In this document: in pieces, positions 25,419 to 60,295 of the stretch
Layout of the letters: each line of letters opens with the position of its first letter
Position numbering within the stretch: position 1 is the stretch's first letter
Made by a program: the position numbers and the translations under genes
Notes under the pieces: model-generated
What the model saw: only the letters and a program-made list of their open reading frames with translations
What the model was told of the DNA's origin: nothing
Database searches by the model: none
Source: Clostridium sp. BJN0001
GTDB taxonomy: Bacteria; Bacillota; Clostridia; Clostridiales; Clostridiaceae
Length of the DNA: 64,000 nt
Assembly: GCF_022869825.1 (NCBI RefSeq)
Contig: NZ_CP094971.1
Coordinates: forward strand, 993,501 to 1,057,500
Reading direction: 5' to 3'

Positions 25419-25477
25419 TATTGATTTTAAGCTTACTGTAAGGTATTTTGGACATAATATAGTTTAATGAATCAATT

Positions 25478-25563: not shown

Positions 25564-26226
25564 ATGAATATAATTAAAACAGAAAATTTATGTAAAATAT
25601 ATGGTAAAAAAGAAAATAAAGTTGTAGCAATTGATAATATAAATATTGAGGTAAATAAAGGAGAATTTTTAGCAATTATAGGTGAAAGTGGATCAGGAAA
25701 AAGTACACTTCTTCATCAGATTGGAGGAGTTGATAAGCCTACATCTGGAAAAGTAATTATTGATGGAGTAGATATCTATGGTCTAAATGATACAAAACTT
25801 GCAATATTCAGAAGAAGAAAGATAGGATTCATTTTTCAGTCATTTAATCTTATACCAGTTTTATCTGTAGAAGAGAATATAAAGCTTCCAGCTCTTTTAG
25901 ATAGAAAAAAAGTAGATAAAGATTATTTTAATGATATAGTTAAAACTTTAAAAATAGATGATAGGCTTAATCATCTTCCGTCAGAGCTTTCAGGAGGACA
26001 GATGCAAAGAACTGCAATTGCACGTGCACTTATAAATAAACCTGCAATAGTACTTGCTGATGAGCCTACAGGAAATCTTGATAGTGAAACTTCTAGAGAG
26101 ATAGTTGAAATGCTTAAGGTTTCATCTAAAAAATATAATCAGACAATAGTTATAATAACACATGATCTTTCAATTGCAGAAGATGCAGATAGAGTTATAA
26201 AAATTAAAGATGGAAAAGTAATGTAA
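25564..26226 (+). CDS. ABC transporter ATP-binding protein (LolD/MacB/BceA type)
   Basis: A 220-residue ATPase: Walker A GESGSGKSTLLHQIGG, Q-loop FIFQSFNLIPVLSVEENI, signature LSGGQMQRTAIARAL, Walker B IVLADEPTGNLDSE, and switch histidine ITHD. This class partners FtsX-type permeases that extrude or detach peptides and lipids rather than import solutes. AAAGGAGAG precedes the ATG. The permease gene follows after 11 bp, and a two-component pair follows that, a common arrangement in antimicrobial-peptide or cell-envelope-stress modules. Substrate unknown. Confidence 0.93.
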   Translation: MNIIKTENLCKIYGKKENKVVAIDNINIEVNKGEFLAIIGESGSGKSTLLHQIGGVDKPTSGKVIIDGVDIYGLNDTKLAIFRRRKIGFIFQSFNLIPVLSVEENIKLPALLDRKKVDKDYFNDIVKTLKIDDRLNHLPSELSGGQMQRTAIARALINKPAIVLADEPTGNLDSETSREIVEMLKVSSKKYNQTIVIITHDLSIAEDADRVIKIKDGKVM

Positions 26227-41077: not shown

Positions 41078-41983
41078 TTAGATATTGCAGTCATCAGTTG
41101 GACACTGAGGAATATTGTCAGTTCCTTGAACACAATTTAATTGTGATGATTGAGGAACAAAGACTGCGAGTTCTTCTCTGTTTGTGAAGAACATTTTTTT
41201 ATTTACTTTAAGTCCTAATTCTATAGATGCAGGAAATGTGTCAGTAGCATCATCAAAAGTTCCATCAGAAGTTACACTAAAGACATCTAAACAAGGAGTA
41301 AATTGATCATATATTGTAAGAGTAGTATCTCTTGGAAGGCATAATGCACCTGAGAATGTGAAATCACTAATTCCTAAACCTGAAGCGTCAATTGGACTTG
41401 CGAAAGAAAAAGATCCTGTAAAATCTTCACATCCAATTTTACCTTTTACTAATACTTCTAAAGTACATATAGTAAATGTTATCTGACTTTGTATAATTCT
41501 ATAAGATACTCCGTTTAAATCGTCATCTCCATAGCAGCATCTATCAGTTGCTAATGTTCCTGTGAAGTTATTATATAAAGTGATAGCACCACATACAAAT
41601 GAAGGATCCACTGCTGTTAAGGGTAGAACTGCTCCGTTTGCATATACTTCTAAAGGGTTATTACCGTCATCAATTCCTATTGCACTATATGAAATACCTA
41701 TTTTTGTGATACATACAGGAGCACCATCAGTATAAGTTACACCTGCTGGTGGAGCATCTACAGTAAATGCTACTGGTGTATAAAATGCGGATTCTATTTT
41801 TTCAAAAGTCATGCAGTTTAGTATTCTTTCTGTTAATATTGGAGTACATACTGCGTTTGTTATTGAGCTGCATGTAACTGGTGAAGTTACAGTACAGCAT
41901 TCTGGTTGTGAGTTATCTTTAAATAAAGGGCTGCTGCAATTAGCTTGACAGCAACCAGTATCTTTACATATTTGGTTTGCCAT
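41078..41983 (-). CDS. Cysteine-rich spore-surface-type protein, paralogue 1
   Basis: A 301-residue protein, one of four tandem paralogues. All share a nearly identical first 48 residues (CKDTGCCQANCSS, then CCTVTSPVTCSS), a central TDRCCYGDDDL block, GALCLPRDTTLTIYD and an end in CPxDDCNI or similar. About 20 cysteines, many in CC pairs, suggest heavy disulfide cross-linking. No signal peptide or membrane segment. CCTCC complement (GGAGGGG) precedes the ATG. A SigK-like promoter lies at 42032-42058. I do not recognise the family; a spore coat or exosporium role is inferred from cysteines, promoter and lack of export signal. Confidence 0.75.
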   Translation of the reverse strand: MANQICKDTGCCQANCSSPLFKDNSQPECCTVTSPVTCSSITNAVCTPILTERILNCMTFEKIESAFYTPVAFTVDAPPAGVTYTDGAPVCITKIGISYSAIGIDDGNNPLEVYANGAVLPLTAVDPSFVCGAITLYNNFTGTLATDRCCYGDDDLNGVSYRIIQSQITFTICTLEVLVKGKIGCEDFTGSFSFASPIDASGLGISDFTFSGALCLPRDTTLTIYDQFTPCLDVFSVTSDGTFDDATDTFPASIELGLKVNKKMFFTNREELAVFVPQSSQLNCVQGTDNIPQCPTDDCNI

Positions 41984-42031
41984 GTAGGTCCCCTCCTAAG
42001 TTTGTTTATAATTTTTTATCCTACCTGTTAA

Positions 42032-42058
42032 TATAGTATGATATTTAATTATTGTTGT
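42032..42058 (-). promoter_or_regulatory. SigK-like promoter of paralogue 1
   Basis: Minus strand: AC (42058-42057), 16-bp spacer, CATACTATA (42040-42032). This fits the late mother-cell sigma factor consensus AC-N16/17-CATAnnnTA, about 50 bp before the ATG. Confidence 0.65.
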
Positions 42059-42133
42059 TACATAAGAGGATGGCATAAAATTTTTTTATTTTAATATATT
42101 ATAATCATTGCTAATATAGATGTTTATTATTTT

Positions 42134-43033
42134 TTAGATATTGCAATCATCATTTGGACATTCTGGAATGTTACCAGTTCCTTCAACACAATTTAATTGT
42201 GATGATTGAGGAACAAAAACTGCGAGTTCTTCTCTGTCTGTAAAGAGCATTTTTTTATCTATTTTAAGTCCTAATTCCACTGATGTAGCAAATTGATTGT
42301 TAGCAGCATATACAGCATTAGTAGTTACACTAAAGATATCTAAGCATGGATTAAATCTATCATATATTGTAAGAGTTTTATCTCGTGGAAGGCATAATGC
42401 ACCTGAGAATGTGAAATCGCTAAAGTTTAAATCTGCAGCTTCATACATAGGTGGGTAAGAATAAGATGCTGTAAAATCTTCGCATCCAATTTTACCTTTT
42501 ACTAATAGTTTTAAAGAACATATATTAAATATTAACTGGCTTTGTATAAATCTATAAGATACACCAGTTAAATCATCATCTCCATAGCAGCATCTATCAG
42601 TTGATAATGTTCCTGTAAATTCTTTATATAACTCAGTACCATTACAGTTAAATACAGGACCTGAGGCTGTAAATGGGATAGATGTTCCATTTGCATATAC
42701 AGTTGGAGCATCACCAACGGTAATTCCTATTGCACTATATGAAATACCTATTTTTGTAATGCATATAGCATCACCAACAGTATAAGTTACACCATCTGGT
42801 GGAGTATCTATAAGAAATGTTACTGGTGATACTAATGAAGTTTCTGTTTTTTGAAAAGTCATACAGTTTATTATTCTCTCTGTGATTATTGGAGTACATA
42901 CTGCGTTTGTTATAGAACTGCATGTAACTGGTGAAGTTACAGTGCAGCATTCTGGCTGTGAGTTATCTTTAAATAAAGGGCTACTGCAATTAGCTTGACA
43001 GCAACCAGTGTCTTTACATATTTGGTTTGCCAT
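42134..43033 (-). CDS. Cysteine-rich spore-surface-type protein, paralogue 2
   Basis: A 299-residue member of the tandem family, transcribed like the others. The first 48 residues are identical to paralogue 1; the region from about 50 to 130 is the most diverged, while TDRCCYGDDDLTGVSYRFIQSQ, GKIGCEDFTASYS and ALCLPRDKTLTIYDRFNPC are kept. This pattern of a fixed N-terminus and a variable middle suggests a common assembly end and diverging surface. GGGAGGG precedes the ATG. Its own SigK-like promoter lies at 43082-43108. No terminator is seen before paralogue 1, so some readthrough is possible. Confidence 0.75.
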   Translation of the reverse strand: MANQICKDTGCCQANCSSPLFKDNSQPECCTVTSPVTCSSITNAVCTPIITERIINCMTFQKTETSLVSPVTFLIDTPPDGVTYTVGDAICITKIGISYSAIGITVGDAPTVYANGTSIPFTASGPVFNCNGTELYKEFTGTLSTDRCCYGDDDLTGVSYRFIQSQLIFNICSLKLLVKGKIGCEDFTASYSYPPMYEAADLNFSDFTFSGALCLPRDKTLTIYDRFNPCLDIFSVTTNAVYAANNQFATSVELGLKIDKKMLFTDREELAVFVPQSSQLNCVEGTGNIPECPNDDCNI

Positions 43034-43081
43034 TTAGGTTCCCTCCCGATTTTGTTTATAATTTTTTATTCTATCTGTTAA

Positions 43082-43108
43082 TATAATATGAAATTTAGTT
43101 ATTACAGT
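43082..43108 (-). promoter_or_regulatory. SigK-like promoter of paralogue 2
   Basis: Minus strand: AC (43108-43107), 16-bp spacer, CATATTATA (43090-43082), with the same spacing as the other three paralogues although the spacer sequence differs. Confidence 0.65.
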
Positions 43109-43127
43109 TATCTAATTTTATTATTTT

Positions 43128-44030
43128 TTAGATATTACAATCATCATTTGGACATTCTGGAACGTTGCCAGTTCCTTCAGTGCAATTTAATTGATATGAT
43201 TCAGGCACAAAGACTGTAAGATTTTCTATATCTGTAAAGAGCATTTTTTTATCTATTTTAAGTCCTAATTCTAATGATGCGCTAAATTCGTCATCAGTTG
43301 TATATGAGGCATCAGTAATTACGCTAAAGATATCTAAGCATGGATTAAATCTATCATATATTGTAAGAGTAGTATCTCTTGGAAGACATACTGAACCCGA
43401 GAATGTGAAATCATTAATTCCTAAATCTGAAGCTAGAATTGGATTATTAGCAGGAGAATAAGATGCTGTAAAATCTTCACATCCGATTTTACCTTTTACA
43501 AATACTTTTAAAGCACATATATGAAATTTTATTTGGCTCTGTATAAATCTATAAGATACACCATTTAAATCATCATCTCCATAGCAGCATCTATCAGTTG
43601 ATAATGTTCCACTAAATTCTTTAAATAAATTAAGAGAATTACAGTTAAATGCAGGTAATACTGGGTCTACTGTTATGAGTGATCCATTTGCATATATTGT
43701 TGGTTTATTAGCAAATGCAATTCCTATTGTGCTATATGAAATACCTATTTTTGTAATGCATATAGCATCTCCAGCAGTATAAGTTACACCATCTGGTGGA
43801 GGATCTATAACGAATGTTACTGGTGTAGAAAATGAGGATTCTGTTTTCTCAAAAGTCATACAGTTTACTATTTTTTCTGTTATTATTGAAGCACATACTG
43901 CGTCTGCTGCTGAGCTACATGTAACTGGTGAAGTTACAGTGCAGCAGTCTGGCTGTGAGTTATCTTTAAATAAAGGGCTGCTGCAATTAGCTTGACAGCA
44001 CCCAGTGTCTTTACATATTTGGTTTGCCAT
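43128..44030 (-). CDS. Cysteine-rich spore-surface-type protein, paralogue 3
   Basis: A 300-residue member of the tandem family. It is the most diverged at residues 39-46 (SSAADAVCASI instead of SSITNAVCTPI) and near the end (VPESYQLNCTEGTGN), but keeps all CC pairs, the TDRCCYGDDDL block and the CPNDDCNI end. Only 94 bp separate it from paralogue 2. GGAGGGA precedes the ATG, and a SigK-like promoter lies at 44080-44106. Cytosolic mother-cell synthesis and deposition on the spore is my inference; nothing in the sequence gives a biochemical activity. Confidence 0.75.
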   Translation of the reverse strand: MANQICKDTGCCQANCSSPLFKDNSQPDCCTVTSPVTCSSAADAVCASIITEKIVNCMTFEKTESSFSTPVTFVIDPPPDGVTYTAGDAICITKIGISYSTIGIAFANKPTIYANGSLITVDPVLPAFNCNSLNLFKEFSGTLSTDRCCYGDDDLNGVSYRFIQSQIKFHICALKVFVKGKIGCEDFTASYSPANNPILASDLGINDFTFSGSVCLPRDTTLTIYDRFNPCLDIFSVITDASYTTDDEFSASLELGLKIDKKMLFTDIENLTVFVPESYQLNCTEGTGNVPECPNDDCNI

Positions 44031-44079
44031 TTAGGTTCCCTCCTGAGTTTGTTTATAATTTTTTTATTCTACCTATTAA

Positions 44080-44106
44080 TATAATATGAAATTCAATTAT
44101 TAATGT
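44080..44106 (-). promoter_or_regulatory. SigK-like promoter of paralogue 3
   Basis: Minus strand: AC (44106-44105), 16-bp spacer, CATATTATA (44088-44080). The upstream side overlaps the transposase-like small ORF remnant at 44092-44217. Confidence 0.65.
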
Positions 44107-44217
44107 TACATAATTGGATATTATATTTAGCTGATATTAATGAATTACTTCCACATTCTAGTACTTCTTGGACTATTTTCACCCTATTTTCTTCAGTAAA
44201 TTTTTTAATAAATCGCA
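44092..44217 (-). pseudogene. Short HTH/OrfA-like remnant between paralogues 3 and 4
   Basis: A 41-codon frame after GGGGG: MRFIKKFTEENRVKIVQEVL, then ECGSNSLISAKYNIQL. It looks like the first helix-turn-helix of IS3-type OrfA proteins (consensus E-x-K-x-K-I-V-x-E-V-L-E-G-x-S-I-x-x-x-A-x-K-Y-N-I) and then breaks off at the promoter of paralogue 3. Probably a leftover of an insertion sequence, perhaps linked with how the array was duplicated. The match is short, so the call is tentative. Confidence 0.45.
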
Positions 44218-44226
44218 TTAAAAATA

Positions 44227-44282
44227 CCCCCTCAAAATATTATAAAATACATTAAATGTATTAGTATAATATTTTGAGGGGG
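44227..44282. repeat. 56-bp near-perfect palindrome
   Basis: Perfect 18-bp arms CCCCCTCAAAATATTATA (44227-44244) and TATAATATTTTGAGGGGG (44265-44282) enclose a loop that is itself symmetric (AATACAT...ATGTATT). It lies 9 bp past the stop of paralogue 4 and just before the OrfA-like remnant. It could act as a transcript-ending hairpin for paralogue 4 or be the end of a miniature or decayed mobile element. Confidence 0.75.
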
Positions 44283-44291
44283 CCTATGAGT

Positions 44292-45203
44292 TTAGATGTT
44301 GCAATTATTATGTGGACATTCTGGAATATTATCAGTTCCTTGAATGCAATTTAATTGTGATGATTGAGGAACAAAAACTGCAAGTTCTTCTCTATCTGTG
44401 AAAAGCATTTTTTTATCTACTTTAAGTCCTAATTCTACTGATGCAGTAAATTGATTAGTAGCAGCATATACAGCATTAGTAGTTACACTAAAGATATCTA
44501 AGCATGGAGTAAATTTATCATATATTGTAAGAGTTTTATCTCTTGGAAGACATAATGAACCTGAGAATGTGAAATCACTAATTCCTAAATTAGAAGTGTG
44601 ATATAAAACTGGGTAAAAATAAGATGCTGAAAAATCGTTGCATCCAATTTTTCCTTTTACTAATAGTTCTAAAGAACATATATCAAAGCTTATCTCGCTT
44701 TGTATAAATCTATAAGATACACCAGTTAAATCATCATCGCCATAGCAGCATCTATCAGTTGATAATGTCCCTGTAAATTCATTATATAATGAAGTGGAAG
44801 TTGGAACAGTAGGACAGACAAATGCAGGGCCTGAGGTTGCTAAAGAGATAGGTGTTCCATTTGCATGTACAGTTGGATCACCAACACCAACGGTAAGTCC
44901 TATTGCATTATATGAAACACCTATTTTTGTAATGCATATTGGATCTCCAACGGTATAAACTACACTTGGTGGAGTATCTATAGAAAATGTTGCTGAAGTT
45001 TCAAATGCAGTTTTTGTTTTCTGGAAAGTCATGCAGTTTATTATTTTTTCTGTTAGTATTGGAGTACATACTGCGTTTGTTATAGAGCTGCATGTAACTG
45101 GTGGAGTTACAGTGCAGCATTCTGGTTTTGAGTTATCTTTATATAAAGGGCTGCTGCAATTAGCTTGACAGCACCCGGTATCTTTACATATTTGGTTTGC
45201 CAT
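44292..45203 (-). CDS. Cysteine-rich spore-surface-type protein, paralogue 4
   Basis: A 303-residue member of the tandem family and the first of the array in transcription order. Small N-terminal changes (PLYKDNSKPECCTVTPPV) distinguish it; it has an insertion FVCPTVPTSTSLYNEF giving an extra cysteine and ends CPHNNCNI. GGAGGGAAA precedes the ATG, and a SigK-like promoter lies at 45253-45279. It is divergent to the gene at 45351, so the 147-bp region between them serves both. Function unknown; spore-surface role inferred as for the paralogues. Confidence 0.75.
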   Translation of the reverse strand: MANQICKDTGCCQANCSSPLYKDNSKPECCTVTPPVTCSSITNAVCTPILTEKIINCMTFQKTKTAFETSATFSIDTPPSVVYTVGDPICITKIGVSYNAIGLTVGVGDPTVHANGTPISLATSGPAFVCPTVPTSTSLYNEFTGTLSTDRCCYGDDDLTGVSYRFIQSEISFDICSLELLVKGKIGCNDFSASYFYPVLYHTSNLGISDFTFSGSLCLPRDKTLTIYDKFTPCLDIFSVTTNAVYAATNQFTASVELGLKVDKKMLFTDREELAVFVPQSSQLNCIQGTDNIPECPHNNCNI

Positions 45204-45252
45204 TTGGTTTCCCTCCTGAGTTTATTTATAATTTTTTTATCTTATCTGTTAA

Positions 45253-45279
45253 TATAATATGAAGTTTAATTATTGCTGT
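45253..45279 (-). promoter_or_regulatory. SigK-like promoter of paralogue 4
   Basis: Minus strand: AC (45279-45278), 16-bp spacer, CATATTATA (45261-45253), about 50 bp before the ATG of the gene ending at 45203. Confidence 0.65.
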
Positions 45280-45350: not shown

Positions 45351-46340
45351 ATGCCATTTCTTAATAAATTCAATATTGAAATTTCTATATCTAAGAAAAT
45401 TTTAATTAAAATAAGGCTTGATCAGAATATATATTTAGATAAATATGATAAAAATAATGTTTTACTTTCAACATATAAAATAGAAAATGGATCATATTTA
45501 TATGATAAGGTGTGGTTTTCGAAGATGAGTGATTTTTCTATATGTGGACTTTTATTAAAAAACAGTAATAAATTAATTTATATTTATATAAACTTAAAGA
45601 AAAATTTTATCATAAAAGAATGTATATCAAATAAGATTTCAGGGTATCAAACAATAGAATTCCCATATATTTATAAGAATAAAGATAGTACACATATTTT
45701 TTTCTATATAAATTATAATAAAAATCCTAGAAGATATTATTTAGTACATTATTATTATAATAAACATAAATGGAATAAAAATATAATATGTAATTCGTTA
45801 TGTGCTATATTAACTAATTATGTATCATTTGTAAAAGAAAATGAATGTAGTGTATTTTATTTAAAAGGTGAACAATATTTTGAAGAAATATATTACAGAT
45901 ATTTTGATTTTAATACATTAAAATGGTCAGATGAAGAAAAAATTACGGATAATAAAAAGAGAAAAGTATATTTGGCTGTAGTTAAGGATAAAAAAAAGAA
46001 TTATCATATAGCTTATTCAGAAAGTAATGGGAGAGTTTATAATATTTCATATATACATTTATCATATATAAATGAAAACAAATATGTTGAAAAGTATAAT
46101 AATACTGTTTCAAAAACTATTGCTCCTATGTATCCAAATATAATTTTAACTAATTCTGTTATTTATGTGCAGTGGATAGAATATAGCTCTTTATATTATT
46201 TAAAAATAAATAGTGAAAATTTTCACACTGAAAGTCCAATGGTTATTGGAGAGAGTATGGGAAGCATATTTTTAGGATGCATAAATAATGATGAACAAAA
46301 TTTCGTTTCATTTATTAATAAAAATGGTAAAAGAATATAA
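45351..46340 (+). CDS. Unrecognised 329-residue protein, possibly beta-propeller
   Basis: I do not recognise it. It is rich in Y, N, K and I with repeated short beta-type blocks of the form (F/Y)-x-x-x-K-W-(N/S) and a hydrophobic strand (for example YYNKHKWNKNIICNS, FDFNTLKWSDEEKI), which suggests a beta-propeller of several blades. No signal peptide or membrane helix. GGAG lies before the ATG. It is divergent to the cysteine-rich array and directly upstream of a gene with a strong ribosome site, so the pair probably belongs to the same spore-related locus. The promoter is not clear. Confidence 0.65.
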   Translation: MPFLNKFNIEISISKKILIKIRLDQNIYLDKYDKNNVLLSTYKIENGSYLYDKVWFSKMSDFSICGLLLKNSNKLIYIYINLKKNFIIKECISNKISGYQTIEFPYIYKNKDSTHIFFYINYNKNPRRYYLVHYYYNKHKWNKNIICNSLCAILTNYVSFVKENECSVFYLKGEQYFEEIYYRYFDFNTLKWSDEEKITDNKKRKVYLAVVKDKKKNYHIAYSESNGRVYNISYIHLSYINENKYVEKYNNTVSKTIAPMYPNIILTNSVIYVQWIEYSSLYYLKINSENFHTESPMVIGESMGSIFLGCINNDEQNFVSFINKNGKRI

Positions 46341-46356
46341 TATCAAGGAGGTTAAC

Positions 46357-47091
46357 ATGGATTTGGTAAAATTTAGTGATACAGTATATGTTAGTGATGA
46401 AAAATTTGTTCCATATAAGAATGAAAATTTAGTTGTAGGAAATATTAATGAAATAAATAAATCTAGCAATAGTGCTATTTTGAATTTTAATCTTCAAAAT
46501 ATTGAGATAGAAAATATAAAGGCGTTATATTTTTATATATATCTTCAAAGTATAAGTATTTATCTAAGCCCTAAAGCTGATATAAATATAATAATACAAA
46601 AATATATAGATAGTGAATATGAAGATTTAAGTAGTACAATTTTATCTATACCAGTTTCAACACGAAAAAAATATATAAAGATAGATTTAAAAAATTTAAT
46701 TGATATAAATGATAATAAGAATCTTCAATATAAGATTATAATTAGAAGTGGAATGGAAAATTTGAGATTAAGGTTTTCTTCAAATTCTTCAAAAAATCCT
46801 CCTTATCTTGAGGCATTTTTTAAAGATGCAGATAAAAAAAATATGGATAATGAAAAAAAGATAAAGGCAGCAGATAAAGATGAGTATATAGAACTTAAAG
46901 AATTACTAAAAAAGAATATTGAGAAAACAGAAAAACTAGAAGCTTCTTCAAAAGAAATAGAAAAAAAATTAGAGGAGCTTAATCTTGAGATACATTCAAA
47001 AATGGATGATAAATTTTATGAAGAATTAAAAGAAAATATAAAAAAAATATCAGATAAGCTTAATATTATTACAATTGAACCTCTTGAATAA
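46357..47091 (+). CDS. Unrecognised protein: beta-rich (DNRLRE-like) domain plus coiled coil
   Basis: A 244-residue protein. Residues 1 to about 155 look like a beta-sandwich with the layout of DNRLRE/TGF-beta-propeptide-type domains (alternating strands, SAILNFNLQNI, LKNLIDINDNKNLQYKIIIRSG, PPYLEAFF). Residues about 165-244 are a charged coiled coil (KKNIEKTEKLEASSKEIEKKLEELN). ATG 46357 has AAGGAGG at 46345-46351; earlier in-frame starts overlap the preceding gene and lack a ribosome site. It lies 16 bp after the 45351 gene. The coiled coil may mediate assembly. Function unknown. Confidence 0.65.
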   Translation: MDLVKFSDTVYVSDEKFVPYKNENLVVGNINEINKSSNSAILNFNLQNIEIENIKALYFYIYLQSISIYLSPKADINIIIQKYIDSEYEDLSSTILSIPVSTRKKYIKIDLKNLIDINDNKNLQYKIIIRSGMENLRLRFSSNSSKNPPYLEAFFKDADKKNMDNEKKIKAADKDEYIELKELLKKNIEKTEKLEASSKEIEKKLEELNLEIHSKMDDKFYEELKENIKKISDKLNIITIEPLE

Positions 47092-52747: not shown

Positions 52748-53602
52748 ATGGAATTTTATGATATGATTGACGAGATTAATGAATCTTTAAAAAATGAAAA
52801 ACTTGTAATTTTTGTAGGAGCAGGTGTTTCAAAGAATTCAGGTATACCAACATGGGGACAGATGGTTAGGACATTTGCAAAAAAGATAGGATATCCTGAT
52901 ATAAAACTTACAACAAATGACTACATAAAAATACCACAGTATTTTTATGTAGTTGATAAATCAGAAAATCACACAGAATATTATAAGACTTTAAAGGAAA
53001 TCGTTGATATCAATTGTGAACCTAATATTATTAATAAGCTAATATACAAAATTCATCCAAAGTATATAGTTACAACTAATTATGATAAACTTATGGATAA
53101 AGTTTCAACTGATTATGAAATAATAAAAAAAGATAAAGATCTTTTAAAGACTAAAGGAAATAATTATCTTATAAAAATGCATGGAGATGTGGATTATATA
53201 AGAGAAATAGTTTTTAAGGAAGACGACTATCTTCAATATTCAGAAACGCATAGACTTATGGAGATATTTATAAAATCACTTTTAATTGATCATATATTTT
53301 TATTTATTGGGTATTCATTAAATGATTATAATTTAAATACTTTTGTAAGCTGGATAGATTTTATAGCTAAAGAAATGAAAGTAAAAGAATCTATGCATAA
53401 AAATTTCTTTTTATCAAGTAGTATTCAAGCGGGAAAAGAATATTTAAAAACTTATTATGAGAGTAAAGGACTTCAAGTAATCGATATGTTCAATCTTCCA
53501 AAGAATGTGGAAAATGAAGTAAAAAAAATAAAACTTAAAGATGAGATAGGAAGAAGAACGTTTGCAGTCCTTAAGCTTTTAGATATAAAAAATAATTTAT
53601 AG
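52748..53602 (+). CDS. Stand-alone SIR2-domain protein (candidate NADase/defence gene)
   Basis: A 284-residue protein consisting of one SIR2-like domain. NAD-binding and catalytic motifs are present: FVGAGVSKNSGIPTWGQ (residues 22-38), TTNYDKLMD with N111 and D113, and H145 in LIKMHGDVD; the KEDDYLQYSE and FIGYSLNDYN segments are typical of the defence-type (SIR2_2) branch. It lacks the zinc-binding cysteines of true deacetylases. Such domains often act as NAD+-depleting effectors in phage defence, but no partner gene (for example Argonaute, STING or HerA) lies beside it. GAAGG precedes the ATG. Confidence 0.85.
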   Translation: MEFYDMIDEINESLKNEKLVIFVGAGVSKNSGIPTWGQMVRTFAKKIGYPDIKLTTNDYIKIPQYFYVVDKSENHTEYYKTLKEIVDINCEPNIINKLIYKIHPKYIVTTNYDKLMDKVSTDYEIIKKDKDLLKTKGNNYLIKMHGDVDYIREIVFKEDDYLQYSETHRLMEIFIKSLLIDHIFLFIGYSLNDYNLNTFVSWIDFIAKEMKVKESMHKNFFLSSSIQAGKEYLKTYYESKGLQVIDMFNLPKNVENEVKKIKLKDEIGRRTFAVLKLLDIKNNL

Positions 53603-56808: not shown

Positions 56809-57717
56809 ATGGAGAATGAAATACTATTAGAATCTGGAACTGGAGAGTTAGAAATAATAGATTTTTTAGTGAATGGTAACAGATATTCAATAAATGTTGT
56901 AAAAGTAAAAGAAGTTATTGAGATGCCTTATGATACTTTAACAAGACTTCCTGATCCAAAGCCTGAAATTGCAGGACTAATTTTATGCAGAGATCAGATC
57001 CTTACATTAATTGATTTAAAGTATATTTTATCAAAGAAACATACAGAAAAATTAGGTGCAAAGGTAATTATATGTGAATTTAACAGGGTAAAGGTAGCAT
57101 TTAATATTGATGATATAGTTGCAGTAAATAGAATTAAGTGTGAAGAAATAAGAAAACCAGATGATTTATCAGAAAACAGTCTTGCTGTTGGGAATATATT
57201 AATTGATGGTAAGGTATCTATAATGCTTGACTTTGAAAAAATTGTCACTGATATTTGTCCATCTTCTGGAATTAGTGAAGACAGACTTGTAAAAGTAGAG
57301 TATAAAGATAGATCAAATATAAAATTATTGTTAGCTGATGATTCTGCACTAATACGTAAATTATTAAAAGATACTTTAATAAAAGCTGGATTTAAAAATA
57401 TGACAGTTTTTGATGATGGTAAGCAGGCTTATAATTATTTATTAGAGCTTAAAGAAAATAAAAAAGAAAACTTTACAGATGATGCTGAGCTTTTAATTAC
57501 TGATATTGAAATGCCTCAGATGGATGGACTTACATTAACAAGAAAGATAAAGGAAGATCCTATTTTAGGAAAACTTCCAGTTGTTATATTCTCATCTCTT
57601 ATTACTGATGAGCTAAGACATAAAGGTGAATCAGTTAAGGCTGATGCACAGTTAAGTAAGCCAGATGTAGAAAAGCTTGTTAATGTAATTGATAAATTAC
57701 TTGAGAATAAAAGATGA
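56809..57717 (+). CDS. cheV: CheV-type chemotaxis adaptor (CheW domain plus receiver)
   Basis: A 302-residue two-domain protein. Residues about 10-150 form a CheW domain (FLVNGNRYSINVVKVKEVIEMP, RLPDPKPEIAGLILCRDQILTLIDLKYIL); about 170-300 form a response-regulator receiver with LLADDSALIRKLL, the phospho-acceptor D in LLITDIEMPQMDG, FSS and the K in LSKPDV. CheV couples chemoreceptors to CheA and tunes adaptation. ATG 56809 follows GGGGGAGA; the in-frame ATG at 56785 lacks a good site. The next gene starts 31 bp on. Confidence 0.92.
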   Translation: MENEILLESGTGELEIIDFLVNGNRYSINVVKVKEVIEMPYDTLTRLPDPKPEIAGLILCRDQILTLIDLKYILSKKHTEKLGAKVIICEFNRVKVAFNIDDIVAVNRIKCEEIRKPDDLSENSLAVGNILIDGKVSIMLDFEKIVTDICPSSGISEDRLVKVEYKDRSNIKLLLADDSALIRKLLKDTLIKAGFKNMTVFDDGKQAYNYLLELKENKKENFTDDAELLITDIEMPQMDGLTLTRKIKEDPILGKLPVVIFSSLITDELRHKGESVKADAQLSKPDVEKLVNVIDKLLENKR

Positions 57718-57748
57718 ATTTAAAGCTTGTTTAGGGGAAGTATGCTTT

Positions 57749-60295
57749 ATGGATAAAAATCGTGGTAAAGAAAAAATTGAGAATCTTCTTTCACAATTTA
57801 GTAATAAAAATTTAATGATTAAGTTAATGAATACATATGATATAATATATGAACTTAACATAAATGAAGATAAGTATAGATTATTTAAAATTAATCCTGA
57901 GAATAACTTAAGAATCAGACAAAATGGTTCATATAATGAATTTATTTTACGTTTGATTAAAAGAGCATCAGAAGATTGTGATAAAAAGGTAATAAAAGAT
58001 AATCTTTCATTTGAACATTTAAAATATAAACTTGAGATGAATAATTACTCTTATTGTGAAGCACATATATCAAATAGGGATACAAAAAAATGCTTTTTGT
58101 ATTCATTTTTAAACATAAGATTATTAAATAATGGTCATATAACTTCTATATGTTTTGTAAAAAACTTAAGCAGTGTAAAAGAAAATAGCGATAGTATTTT
58201 GAGTTATTCAAAACAGCTGAATTTTATTTTAAAAAAATCATATTCATTTATTTTATCTGTAGATATAAATAAAAAAACATATTATTATCAAAATTTTGAT
58301 AACAATATCAACATAGATAGTGTTAAAAATAAATTGGCTTACGATGATTTTATTATTTATATGGCTGAAAAGACAGTTTATGCAGATGATAGAGACATAT
58401 TTTATGATACATTAAAAATGAAAAATATAGAGATGCATTTTTCAAATACTAAAAATGAGATGAATTTTAATTATAGAGCTATTAAAGGTAAAAGCGGATA
58501 TATATGGAAAACTGCAACGTGCATTTTAATTCCAAGTTCTTCTAAAGATAAGAAAATTATATTTATATTAAGCAAAAATATCGATGATATATATACAAAA
58601 AACTTTTTAAATAACTGTATAGATGAAAATAGAAAAGATGATATTTTTGTAGAAAATAAAGATTTGGTTATTTTTGAACAGGATTATGTTGAAAATAAAG
58701 GATATATAATTCAGCAGGGAAATAATAGGTTCCCTATAAAACAAACAAGCAATAATATAATTTATGATATATTAAATTCAGGTGTTATATGCGAAGCAGA
58801 TCTTGATAATTTTACTAGAGTTTTAAGAGGAAGTTTAACTGATAATAATGATAATCAAGTAATCTGTAGAATAAGAAATGTATTTGGAATTTATGAATGG
58901 TGCATGGTATGCTTTATTTATGTTAAAGATATGGACGGAAAAATATTAAAACTCATTGGAACATTAAAAGACATGCATGAATCTATGGACAGATATAGAG
59001 GTCTTAAATTTAAAACAGAATGTGATTTATTAACTGGTCTTGCAAATTCAGAGCAGTTTACAACAAAAGTTAAAGAAGTTTTGAGGAAAAGACTTCCTGA
59101 GACATATGCTATAATTTCCTTTGACATTAATAATTTTAAAGTTATTAATGAGTTATATGGAATGGAAATGGGAAATCAAGTACTTATCTTTGTGGCAAAG
59201 ATTTTAGATGATATTTTAGGTGATGATAAAATAGTAGCAAGATTTTCAAATGATTTCTTCTATATATTTACAGACTATGATAAAGAGGATGAACTCGTAA
59301 ATTTAGTAGAAACAATTGCAAAAAGACTTCATGACTTTAGCAGCAAATTTACTATAACAGTTTCTTTTGGAATTTATAAGATTACTAATTTGAAACATGA
59401 AATAAGTGGAATGTGCGACAGAGCTAATCTTGCCAAAAAAGAAATTAAAGGTAATATAGTTCATTTATACTCGTTTTATGATGCAACAATAAGAACAAAA
59501 ATATTAGAAGATAGAGATATAGAAAATAAAATGGAGAATGCTTTAAAAAGTAATCAATTTTTAATGTATCTTCAGCCTAAATATAATATTGAAAGTTCAG
59601 AAATAATTGGAGCAGAAGCATTAGTACGATGGAATGATCCTGAAAAAGGATTAGTATATCCATATAAATTCATACCATTATTTGAGAAAAATGGTTTTGT
59701 AGTAAATGTAGATAGATTTATATGGGAACAGGCATGTAAAACAATAAGAAATTGGATTGATATGGGATATAAGCCTGTTCCTATTTCGGTTAATGTATCA
59801 AGGCTTCATATATACAATACAAAATTTATTGCATTTGTTAAAGGATTGCTTAAAAAGTATGATATATCTACAAATCTTTTAGAACTTGAAGTTACTGAGA
59901 GTGCTCTTTTTGAGAAACAGGATGAATTTAACAAAGTTCTTTCAAAATTGAAAGAAGAAGGATTTGTTCTTGAAATGGACGATTTTGGATCTGGTTATTC
60001 GTCACTTAATATGCTTAAAGACTCACCTGTTGATGTTGTAAAGATTGATAGAGAGTTCTTAAATGAAGTCATGGAAAGCAAAAGAGGAAAGAGTATAATA
60101 TCACACACAATATCTATGATAAATGATATAGGGCTTAGAGTAGTTGCTGAAGGGGTAGAAAATAAATTACAGGCAGACTTCTTACTAAATTGTGGATGCA
60201 ATATTGCACAAGGGTATTATTATTCAAAGCCTATTACGGTATCAGAATTTGAAAAGAAGCTTAAAAAAACAAAAAATAATGCTACATTTTTGTAG
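57749..60295 (+). CDS. Degenerate GGDEF / EAL protein (probable c-di-GMP phosphodiesterase)
   Basis: An 848-residue protein. The N-terminal ~430 residues are poorly recognisable, with a PAS-like segment just before the GGDEF domain (VICEADLDNFTRVLRG to LIGTLKDMHE). The GGDEF domain begins DLLTGLANSEQF but its signature is SNDFF at 500-504 instead of GGDEF, so cyclase activity is unlikely. The EAL domain is intact: E623-A-L, NVSRLH, ELEVTESALFE, DDFGSGYSSL, VKIDREFL, VAEGVE, QGYYYSKP. It should degrade c-di-GMP. ATG 57749 follows AGGGGAAG. Cytosolic; it follows cheV closely, so motility control is likely. Confidence 0.9.
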   Translation: MDKNRGKEKIENLLSQFSNKNLMIKLMNTYDIIYELNINEDKYRLFKINPENNLRIRQNGSYNEFILRLIKRASEDCDKKVIKDNLSFEHLKYKLEMNNYSYCEAHISNRDTKKCFLYSFLNIRLLNNGHITSICFVKNLSSVKENSDSILSYSKQLNFILKKSYSFILSVDINKKTYYYQNFDNNINIDSVKNKLAYDDFIIYMAEKTVYADDRDIFYDTLKMKNIEMHFSNTKNEMNFNYRAIKGKSGYIWKTATCILIPSSSKDKKIIFILSKNIDDIYTKNFLNNCIDENRKDDIFVENKDLVIFEQDYVENKGYIIQQGNNRFPIKQTSNNIIYDILNSGVICEADLDNFTRVLRGSLTDNNDNQVICRIRNVFGIYEWCMVCFIYVKDMDGKILKLIGTLKDMHESMDRYRGLKFKTECDLLTGLANSEQFTTKVKEVLRKRLPETYAIISFDINNFKVINELYGMEMGNQVLIFVAKILDDILGDDKIVARFSNDFFYIFTDYDKEDELVNLVETIAKRLHDFSSKFTITVSFGIYKITNLKHEISGMCDRANLAKKEIKGNIVHLYSFYDATIRTKILEDRDIENKMENALKSNQFLMYLQPKYNIESSEIIGAEALVRWNDPEKGLVYPYKFIPLFEKNGFVVNVDRFIWEQACKTIRNWIDMGYKPVPISVNVSRLHIYNTKFIAFVKGLLKKYDISTNLLELEVTESALFEKQDEFNKVLSKLKEEGFVLEMDDFGSGYSSLNMLKDSPVDVVKIDREFLNEVMESKRGKSIISHTISMINDIGLRVVAEGVENKLQADFLLNCGCNIAQGYYYSKPITVSEFEKKLKKTKNNATFL

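Follow-up and report, generated by a model that had tools for sequence, protein, structure and literature searches.

A tandem array of four CdeC-like cysteine-rich proteins, probable SigmaK-controlled components of the clostridial spore surface, at a locus shared with CsxA

Cysteine-rich proteins described from spore surfaces include CdeC, an exosporium morphogenetic protein of C. difficile (PMC6101409, PMC7677010), and CsxA of C. sporogenes (299 amino acids (aa), 25 cysteines; PMC4942563), which is described as self-assembling into the exosporium lattice and forming 2D crystals (PMC7333573). The same account places the csxA gene in a stretch starting from pheT, with zapA on one side, a U32 peptidase gene on the other and a conserved divergent gene opposite, and describes ExsY/CotY of Bacillus as cysteine-rich proteins that form a disulfide-locked sheet (PMC7333573). 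We analysed a stretch of 64,000 nucleotides (nt) from Clostridium sp. BJN0001 (contig NZ_CP094971.1, positions 993,501 to 1,057,500 of the forward strand; the window), whose genome is 2.69 Mb in one contig. The window contains a tandem array of four genes for cysteine-rich proteins, W1 to W4 (Table 1). Our analysis indicates that these probably serve as CdeC-like building blocks of the exosporium (or of the outer coat), under SigmaK control and linked by disulfides, and replace CsxA at a shared locus.

The four proteins (301, 299, 300 and 303 aa) contain exactly 20 cysteines each, 6.6–6.7% of their residues, and all 20 positions align. W1, W3 and W4 are 73–79% identical to W2, and a search of the whole genome with W2 returned W1–W4 and no fifth copy at E ≤ 1. 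An earlier note on this DNA had described four proteins of about 300 residues and about 20 cysteines, with an almost fixed 48-residue N-terminus and a variable middle, and the alignment bears this out. In columns 1–48 the pairs differ by 0–10 nonsynonymous changes on ~114 sites, with nonsynonymous divergence (dN) of 0–0.093 against synonymous divergence (dS) of 0.15–0.23, indicating protein-level constraint by selection on the N-terminus; in the rest of the alignment pairwise dN is 0.10–0.27 and dS 0.12–0.50. The somewhat lower dS of the N-terminal columns leaves room for partial gene conversion. The first 44 residues form an arm with seven cysteines, two CC pairs among them, and the N-terminus (MANQICKDTGCCQANCSSPL...) shows no hydrophobic signal peptide, as judged by eye without a prediction run. 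In a quick tree W1–W4 cluster together (SH-aLRT (Shimodaira–Hasegawa-like approximate likelihood-ratio test) support 83), with the closest outside relative, P0005, as their sister (100), so the array appears to have arisen by local expansion.

We analysed the relation of W1–W4 to known families. Pfam searches at E ≤ 1 returned no family for W1–W3 and only an unrelated match (0.2) for W4. The NCBIfam model of CdeC (NF052417) matched W2 with an E-value of 5e-8 and 32.2 bits, far under its equivalog cut-off of 350 bits, and the profile similarity spans ~240 residues. The same model matched, at E ≤ 0.01, 9 of the 18 rows of one alignment of the family (A2; best 5.5e-17) and 12 of the 17 rows of another (A4; best 1.4e-17), some rows being common to both. 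It matched none of seven other cysteine-rich proteins taken from loci of the window type or the CsxA type (four DUF4489-type proteins, two CsxA-type orthologues and one other), so cysteine content alone cannot explain the matches to CdeC. The earlier note could name no known family for these proteins; this no longer stands, as the profile similarity places them in a putative CdeC-like superfamily, as sub-threshold distant relatives of CdeC and not as CdeC itself, at a locus that corresponds to that of csxA. CdeC and the window family are both cysteine-rich, but CdeC is described as longer and richer in cysteine (405 aa, 9%), with a different gene neighbourhood in C. difficile (PMC6101409). The four tandem copies seen here are a further difference.

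Relatives in other genomes form tandem sets of their own, some of which include cysteine-poor copies. One relative (P0007) is from C. beijerinckii, the species name being that of the source record; a W2 search of the named genomes returned no relative. An assignment of the C. beijerinckii-type relatives (L005) to CsxA was dropped once the CsxA-type family was known by its N-terminus and its pheT/U32 context. No homology was found between the window family and SipL/SPOCS-like neighbours.

The AlphaFold2 model of W2, built from 17 sequences, has a mean pLDDT (predicted local distance difference test) of 74.6, with 137 of 299 residues at 90 or above. The predicted core, about residues 45–275, is beta-rich and mostly confident, though weaker around 141–160. 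Residues 1–40 and 275–299 fall below 50, so the seven cysteines of the arm and three of the C-terminal tail lie in ends that are predicted to be flexible. The proposal of an N-terminal assembly arm thus agrees with the model as regards a flexible, cysteine-bearing segment, and four cysteine-poor paralogues are without it; the role of a connector is putative. The four come from 41 aligned family sequences, have 8–16 residues before the core and 2–5 cysteines in total. At four loci (L073, L151, L152 and L080) cysteine-poor, arm-less paralogues directly adjoin cysteine-rich ones, a pattern that would fit the joint production of two types of subunit. The numbers of arm and core cysteines show no correlation in the family. 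A search by sequence for solved structures related to W2, A2, A4 or the partner protein (below) gave nothing significant. Ena, F-ENA and SipL folds did not appear in the displayed part of the fold-search results (Foldseek and VIA-align 2), which excludes nothing, and a CsxA-type model based on two sequences (mean pLDDT 42.5) was too poor for use.

As can be seen from Table 1, each gene of the array is preceded, as the earlier note had recognised, by a string of the form AC-N16-CATANNATA; it ends 48, 48, 49 and 49 nt before the four ATG codons. AC-N16/17-CATANNATA at promoter distance is what we take to be the SigmaK consensus. The string means little alone, because we counted 64 sites genome-wide against 55 for the reversed control, hardly the enrichment that had been expected; many of the first 30 sites lie inside open reading frames (ORFs). 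Since, in addition, the four copies are paralogous, the window promoters alone prove little. Independent support for the predicted promoters is the presence of the motif upstream of distant relatives. Indeed, the motif was found within 200 nt upstream of 17 of 20 family genes (all but L007, L008a and L012_0), against 0.12 expected from first-order Markov sequences; many of the 20 are only ~21–33% identical to W2, and the set includes some close orthologues. The motif precedes 20 of the 158 ORFs in the window plus the loci of nine relatives (L072–L080), and family genes account for 14 of these 20. The remaining six comprise three DUF4489 genes, one gene of the CBM96-coil type (below), a glycosyltransferase gene adjoining a family gene, and an ABC transporter gene in the window. 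The host genome also encodes sigK (score over the cut-off), with the same motif ~28 nt before its likely GTG start. The comparative evidence thus supports well the late mother-cell control claimed for the array, and SigmaK control of W1–W4 is the best reading of the predicted promoters.

The gap between W4 and W3 contains a very stable hairpin (44226–44282; 44220–44295 folds as RNA at −33.5 kcal/mol, z ~ −9). It is followed by a 41-aa ORF (MRFIKKFTEENRVKIVQEVL...; 44093–44218, minus strand), which overlaps the W3 promoter and looks like the remnant of a transposase helix-turn-helix, with no Pfam match. Elsewhere in the genome (L086, C1:86909-86935) a SigmaK-type motif stands 31 nt before a gene for a 434-aa protein, possibly SleC-like, with weak, sub-cut-off SpoIID/SleB matches. 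The motif of the ABC transporter gene (25564–26226) lies at 25435–25461, 102 nt upstream, possibly by chance.

We compared the locus with that of csxA. The CsxA-type family was recognised by the first ten residues of CsxA, taken from a published primer (PMC7333573), and by the pheT/U32 context, the full sequence of CsxA not being compared. The family was first found in three genomes (G212–G214), and at one locus (L070) the first ten residues match those of CsxA 10/10. L135 and L139 are flanked by pheT on one side and a U32 peptidase gene on the other; at L136 and L147 a U32 gene is the neighbour. Because the N-terminus and the context agree, we identify the family as CsxA-type. Of the 206 genomes of the bacterial family, 76 are matched by its profile, the match being weak in 20. 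From the strong matches we chose 20 loci by hand, one per genome.

The window and the CsxA-type loci share a divergent gene, the partner. In the window it stands divergent from W4, and it has relatives in other loci of the window family at 26–34% identity. Within the fetched stretches the partner is present in 14 of the 17 genomes that bear the window family and absent from three (G008, G034 and G024); G035 has it only as a shorter ORF, and G047 has it in the cluster, not immediately divergent. A profile built from L069 and L071 found the partner in 19 of the 20 CsxA-type loci (all but L128), nine of which were also matched directly by the window-type partner profile. When the two partner profiles were aligned, hhalign gave probabilities of 97.9 and 98.5% (E 4e-13 and 3e-15), against 0.0–0.4% in four control comparisons. 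The cysteine-rich proteins themselves, in contrast, showed no homology: profiles of the window family (41 sequences) and the CsxA-type family (33) gave 0.04 and 0.21%, and three tests at growing depth all ended at 0.0–0.2%. CsxA and the window proteins are thus alike in size, cysteine-richness and locus plan, with a homologous divergent partner, but differ in their N-termini and show no profile homology.

The two families were not found together in any genome searched. The window family occurs in 17 and the CsxA-type family in 76 of the 206 genomes, with an overlap of 0 where 6.3 are expected (hypergeometric P = 2.6e-4; the P values given here ignore the kinship of genomes, and searches can miss diverged copies). 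The SigmaK-type motif precedes 11 of 30 CsxA-type genes; of the 198 other ORFs at these loci, 9 have it. In the literature consulted we found no report of an exchange between CdeC-like proteins and CsxA, no search having been aimed at exchange alone.

These results suggest the following scheme. SigmaK would transcribe W1–W4 late in the mother cell, from the promoters described above. The products, which stem from a tandem expansion within the lineage, would be CdeC-like cysteine-rich proteins of the spore surface, each with a folded beta-rich core (~45–275), a disordered N-terminal arm with seven cysteines and a short disordered C-terminal tail with three. Most likely the beta cores pack by self-assembly into a sheet that surrounds the forespore, as the behaviour of CdeC and CsxA suggests, and the cysteines of arm and tail would lock neighbours by intermolecular disulfides after the lattice has formed, in the way already put forward for assemblies of CsxA and of CdeC. 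With an arm that is nearly identical, the four copies may mix in one lattice, the variable cores diversifying its surface. Judging from conservation, the divergent partner and the CBM96-coil protein may help to anchor or decorate the sheet. If this scheme holds, W1–W4 would work in the same way as ExsY/CotY, although no Pfam or NCBIfam model of the ExsY/CotY kind matches the four copies.

The window family would also occupy the place taken in many related clostridia by a CsxA-type lattice protein. We consider it an even question whether clostridia have exchanged the main structural protein of their exosporium in this way, a CdeC-like protein taking over from a sequence-unrelated CsxA-type protein at a locus marked by the partner, with a mixed shell of four copies in the present host. 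If so, the shell would be the same in different clostridia but made from different proteins, with one conserved assembly partner as its base.

Several results weigh against the proposed scheme. W1, W3 and W4 have no match to the NCBIfam CdeC model at E ≤ 1, and neither has P0005. The signature motifs described for CdeC (KKNKRR, HHH, six NPC repeats, CCRQGKGK and CNECC; PMC7677010) are absent from W1–W4, save for a single NPC in W2 and in W3. Of the 22 ORFs of the family in the window and L072–L080, 8 are without the strict promoter motif, which is also missing from the partner gene and the CBM96-coil gene of the window. Searches with the W2 model in PDB, VIA-align 2 and BFVD returned no confident fold match. 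The comparisons with CsxA rest on members of the CsxA-type family, the sequence of CsxA itself not being among them. The overlap P value weakens to 0.0035 when only the 56 genomes with strong CsxA-type matches are counted and to 0.007 within the genus (16 and 16 of 68 genomes), and the mutual exclusion may be partly due to common descent. In addition, no collagen repeats were found in the host genome, so a typical nap may be absent from this host.

The last of these points bears on the location of the proteins. W1–W4 could be SigmaK-controlled, disulfide-linked structural or crosslinking proteins of the outer coat and not of the exosporium; C. difficile cdeC mutants are described as defective in coat assembly as well (PMC6101409), and the lack of a collagen-like nap protein in the host fits such a role. 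We regard this as rather unlikely, however, given that relatives at two loci (L072 and L078) adjoin glycosyltransferases and collagen-like proteins with an N-terminal CBM96 domain, and that the window locus corresponds to the csxA locus.

It is less likely still that the array encodes four distinct spore-surface proteins, such as adhesins or surface variants, that do not assemble together. Parts of the core do diverge with dN near dS, as in columns 49–100 of W1/W2 (dN 0.207, dS 0.200) and columns 101–200 of W2/W4 (dN 0.139, dS 0.124). All four copies, however, keep the 20 cysteines, the arm and an equivalent promoter, which fits joint expression and assembly.

The disordered, cysteine-rich arm with CC pairs before a beta-rich core also recalls a cysteine-linked spore fibre or appendage, in which the arm would be the covalent connector of stacked subunits. 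This is how the N-terminal arm serves in the Ena fibres of Bacillus, and Ena1 has a flexible, cysteine-containing N-terminal arm. Neither DUF3992, which we take to be the Ena-type Pfam domain, nor its F-ENA counterpart DUF4183 matches W1–W4 at E ≤ 1, and no fibre subunit appeared among the fold matches, a weak piece of evidence. F-ENA subunits, to which DUF4183 is assigned, are described with the same order of flexible cysteine-bearing arm and beta-rich core (PMC11952670), whereas W1–W4 have no Pfam domain of that kind. Furthermore, the homology of W1–W4 is to CdeC, described as forming lamella-like structures (PMC7677010), and their partner gene is that of CsxA, a former of 2D crystals (PMC7333573). 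A fibre is therefore quite improbable; the cysteine-rich spore-surface role claimed by the earlier note is well supported by the comparative evidence, while nothing points to an appendage over a sheet-like layer. Finally, a non-spore role with a promoter resemblance produced by accident in AT-rich DNA, which the near-equal genome-wide and reversed counts would allow, is very hard to reconcile with the occurrence of the motif before 17 of 20 family genes, the CdeC homology with its clean controls and the spore-surface-type neighbours at relatives' loci.

The window family is likely a variant of the cysteine-rich clostridial exosporium proteins, with a place on the spore surface; what is unexpected is the apparent exchange of the lattice protein at one conserved locus. 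CdeC and CsxA, which have been studied separately, are hereby tied to one locus plan, and the divergent partner is predicted to be a general assembly or docking factor of clostridial spore shells. A single partner family combined with two lattice proteins unrelated in sequence would be a natural experiment. C. beijerinckii, the source of P0007, is a solvent producer, is not known as a pathogen and would suit tests of the lattice and disulfide hypotheses. For the hypothesis on the partner a different species is required, because G008 and G034, whose family genes are the nearest here to P0007, have no partner in the fetched stretches.

Table 1. Features of the cysteine-rich array and its divergent neighbours (window coordinates)
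Feature	Position	Strand	Description
W1	41078..41983	minus	301 aa, 20 Cys; CdeC-like cysteine-rich protein
W2	42134..43033	minus	299 aa, 20 Cys; copy modelled; sole copy matching NCBIfam CdeC
W3	43128..44030	minus	300 aa, 20 Cys
W4	44292..45203	minus	303 aa, 20 Cys
Predicted SigmaK-type promoter of W1	42032..42058	minus	AC-N16-CATACTATA
Predicted SigmaK-type promoter of W2	43082..43108	minus	AC-N16-CATATTATA
Predicted SigmaK-type promoter of W3	44080..44106	minus	AC-N16-CATATTATA
Predicted SigmaK-type promoter of W4	45253..45279	minus	AC-N16-CATATTATA
Divergent partner gene	45351..46340	plus	329 aa; homologue of the divergent neighbour of CsxA-type genes
CBM96-like domain + coiled coil (CBM96-coil) gene	46288..47091	plus	267 aa

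The CBM96-coil gene is present in 12 of the 17 genomes that bear the window family (fetched stretches). Its CBM96 match is sub-cut-off in the window (0.0075) and over the cut-off in three relatives. As the annotated ORF overlaps the end of the partner gene, its true start may lie further in. SipL/DUF11 genes occur at L073. Small cysteine-rich DUF4489 proteins adjoin both window-type loci (L076, L079 and L080) and CsxA-type loci (L129, L131, L135 and L138), and may for this reason be a common exosporium component. Further along, the window encodes a 284-aa SIR2_2-domain protein, possibly of defence type (52748–53602), and an 868-aa GGDEF-EAL protein (57689–60295).

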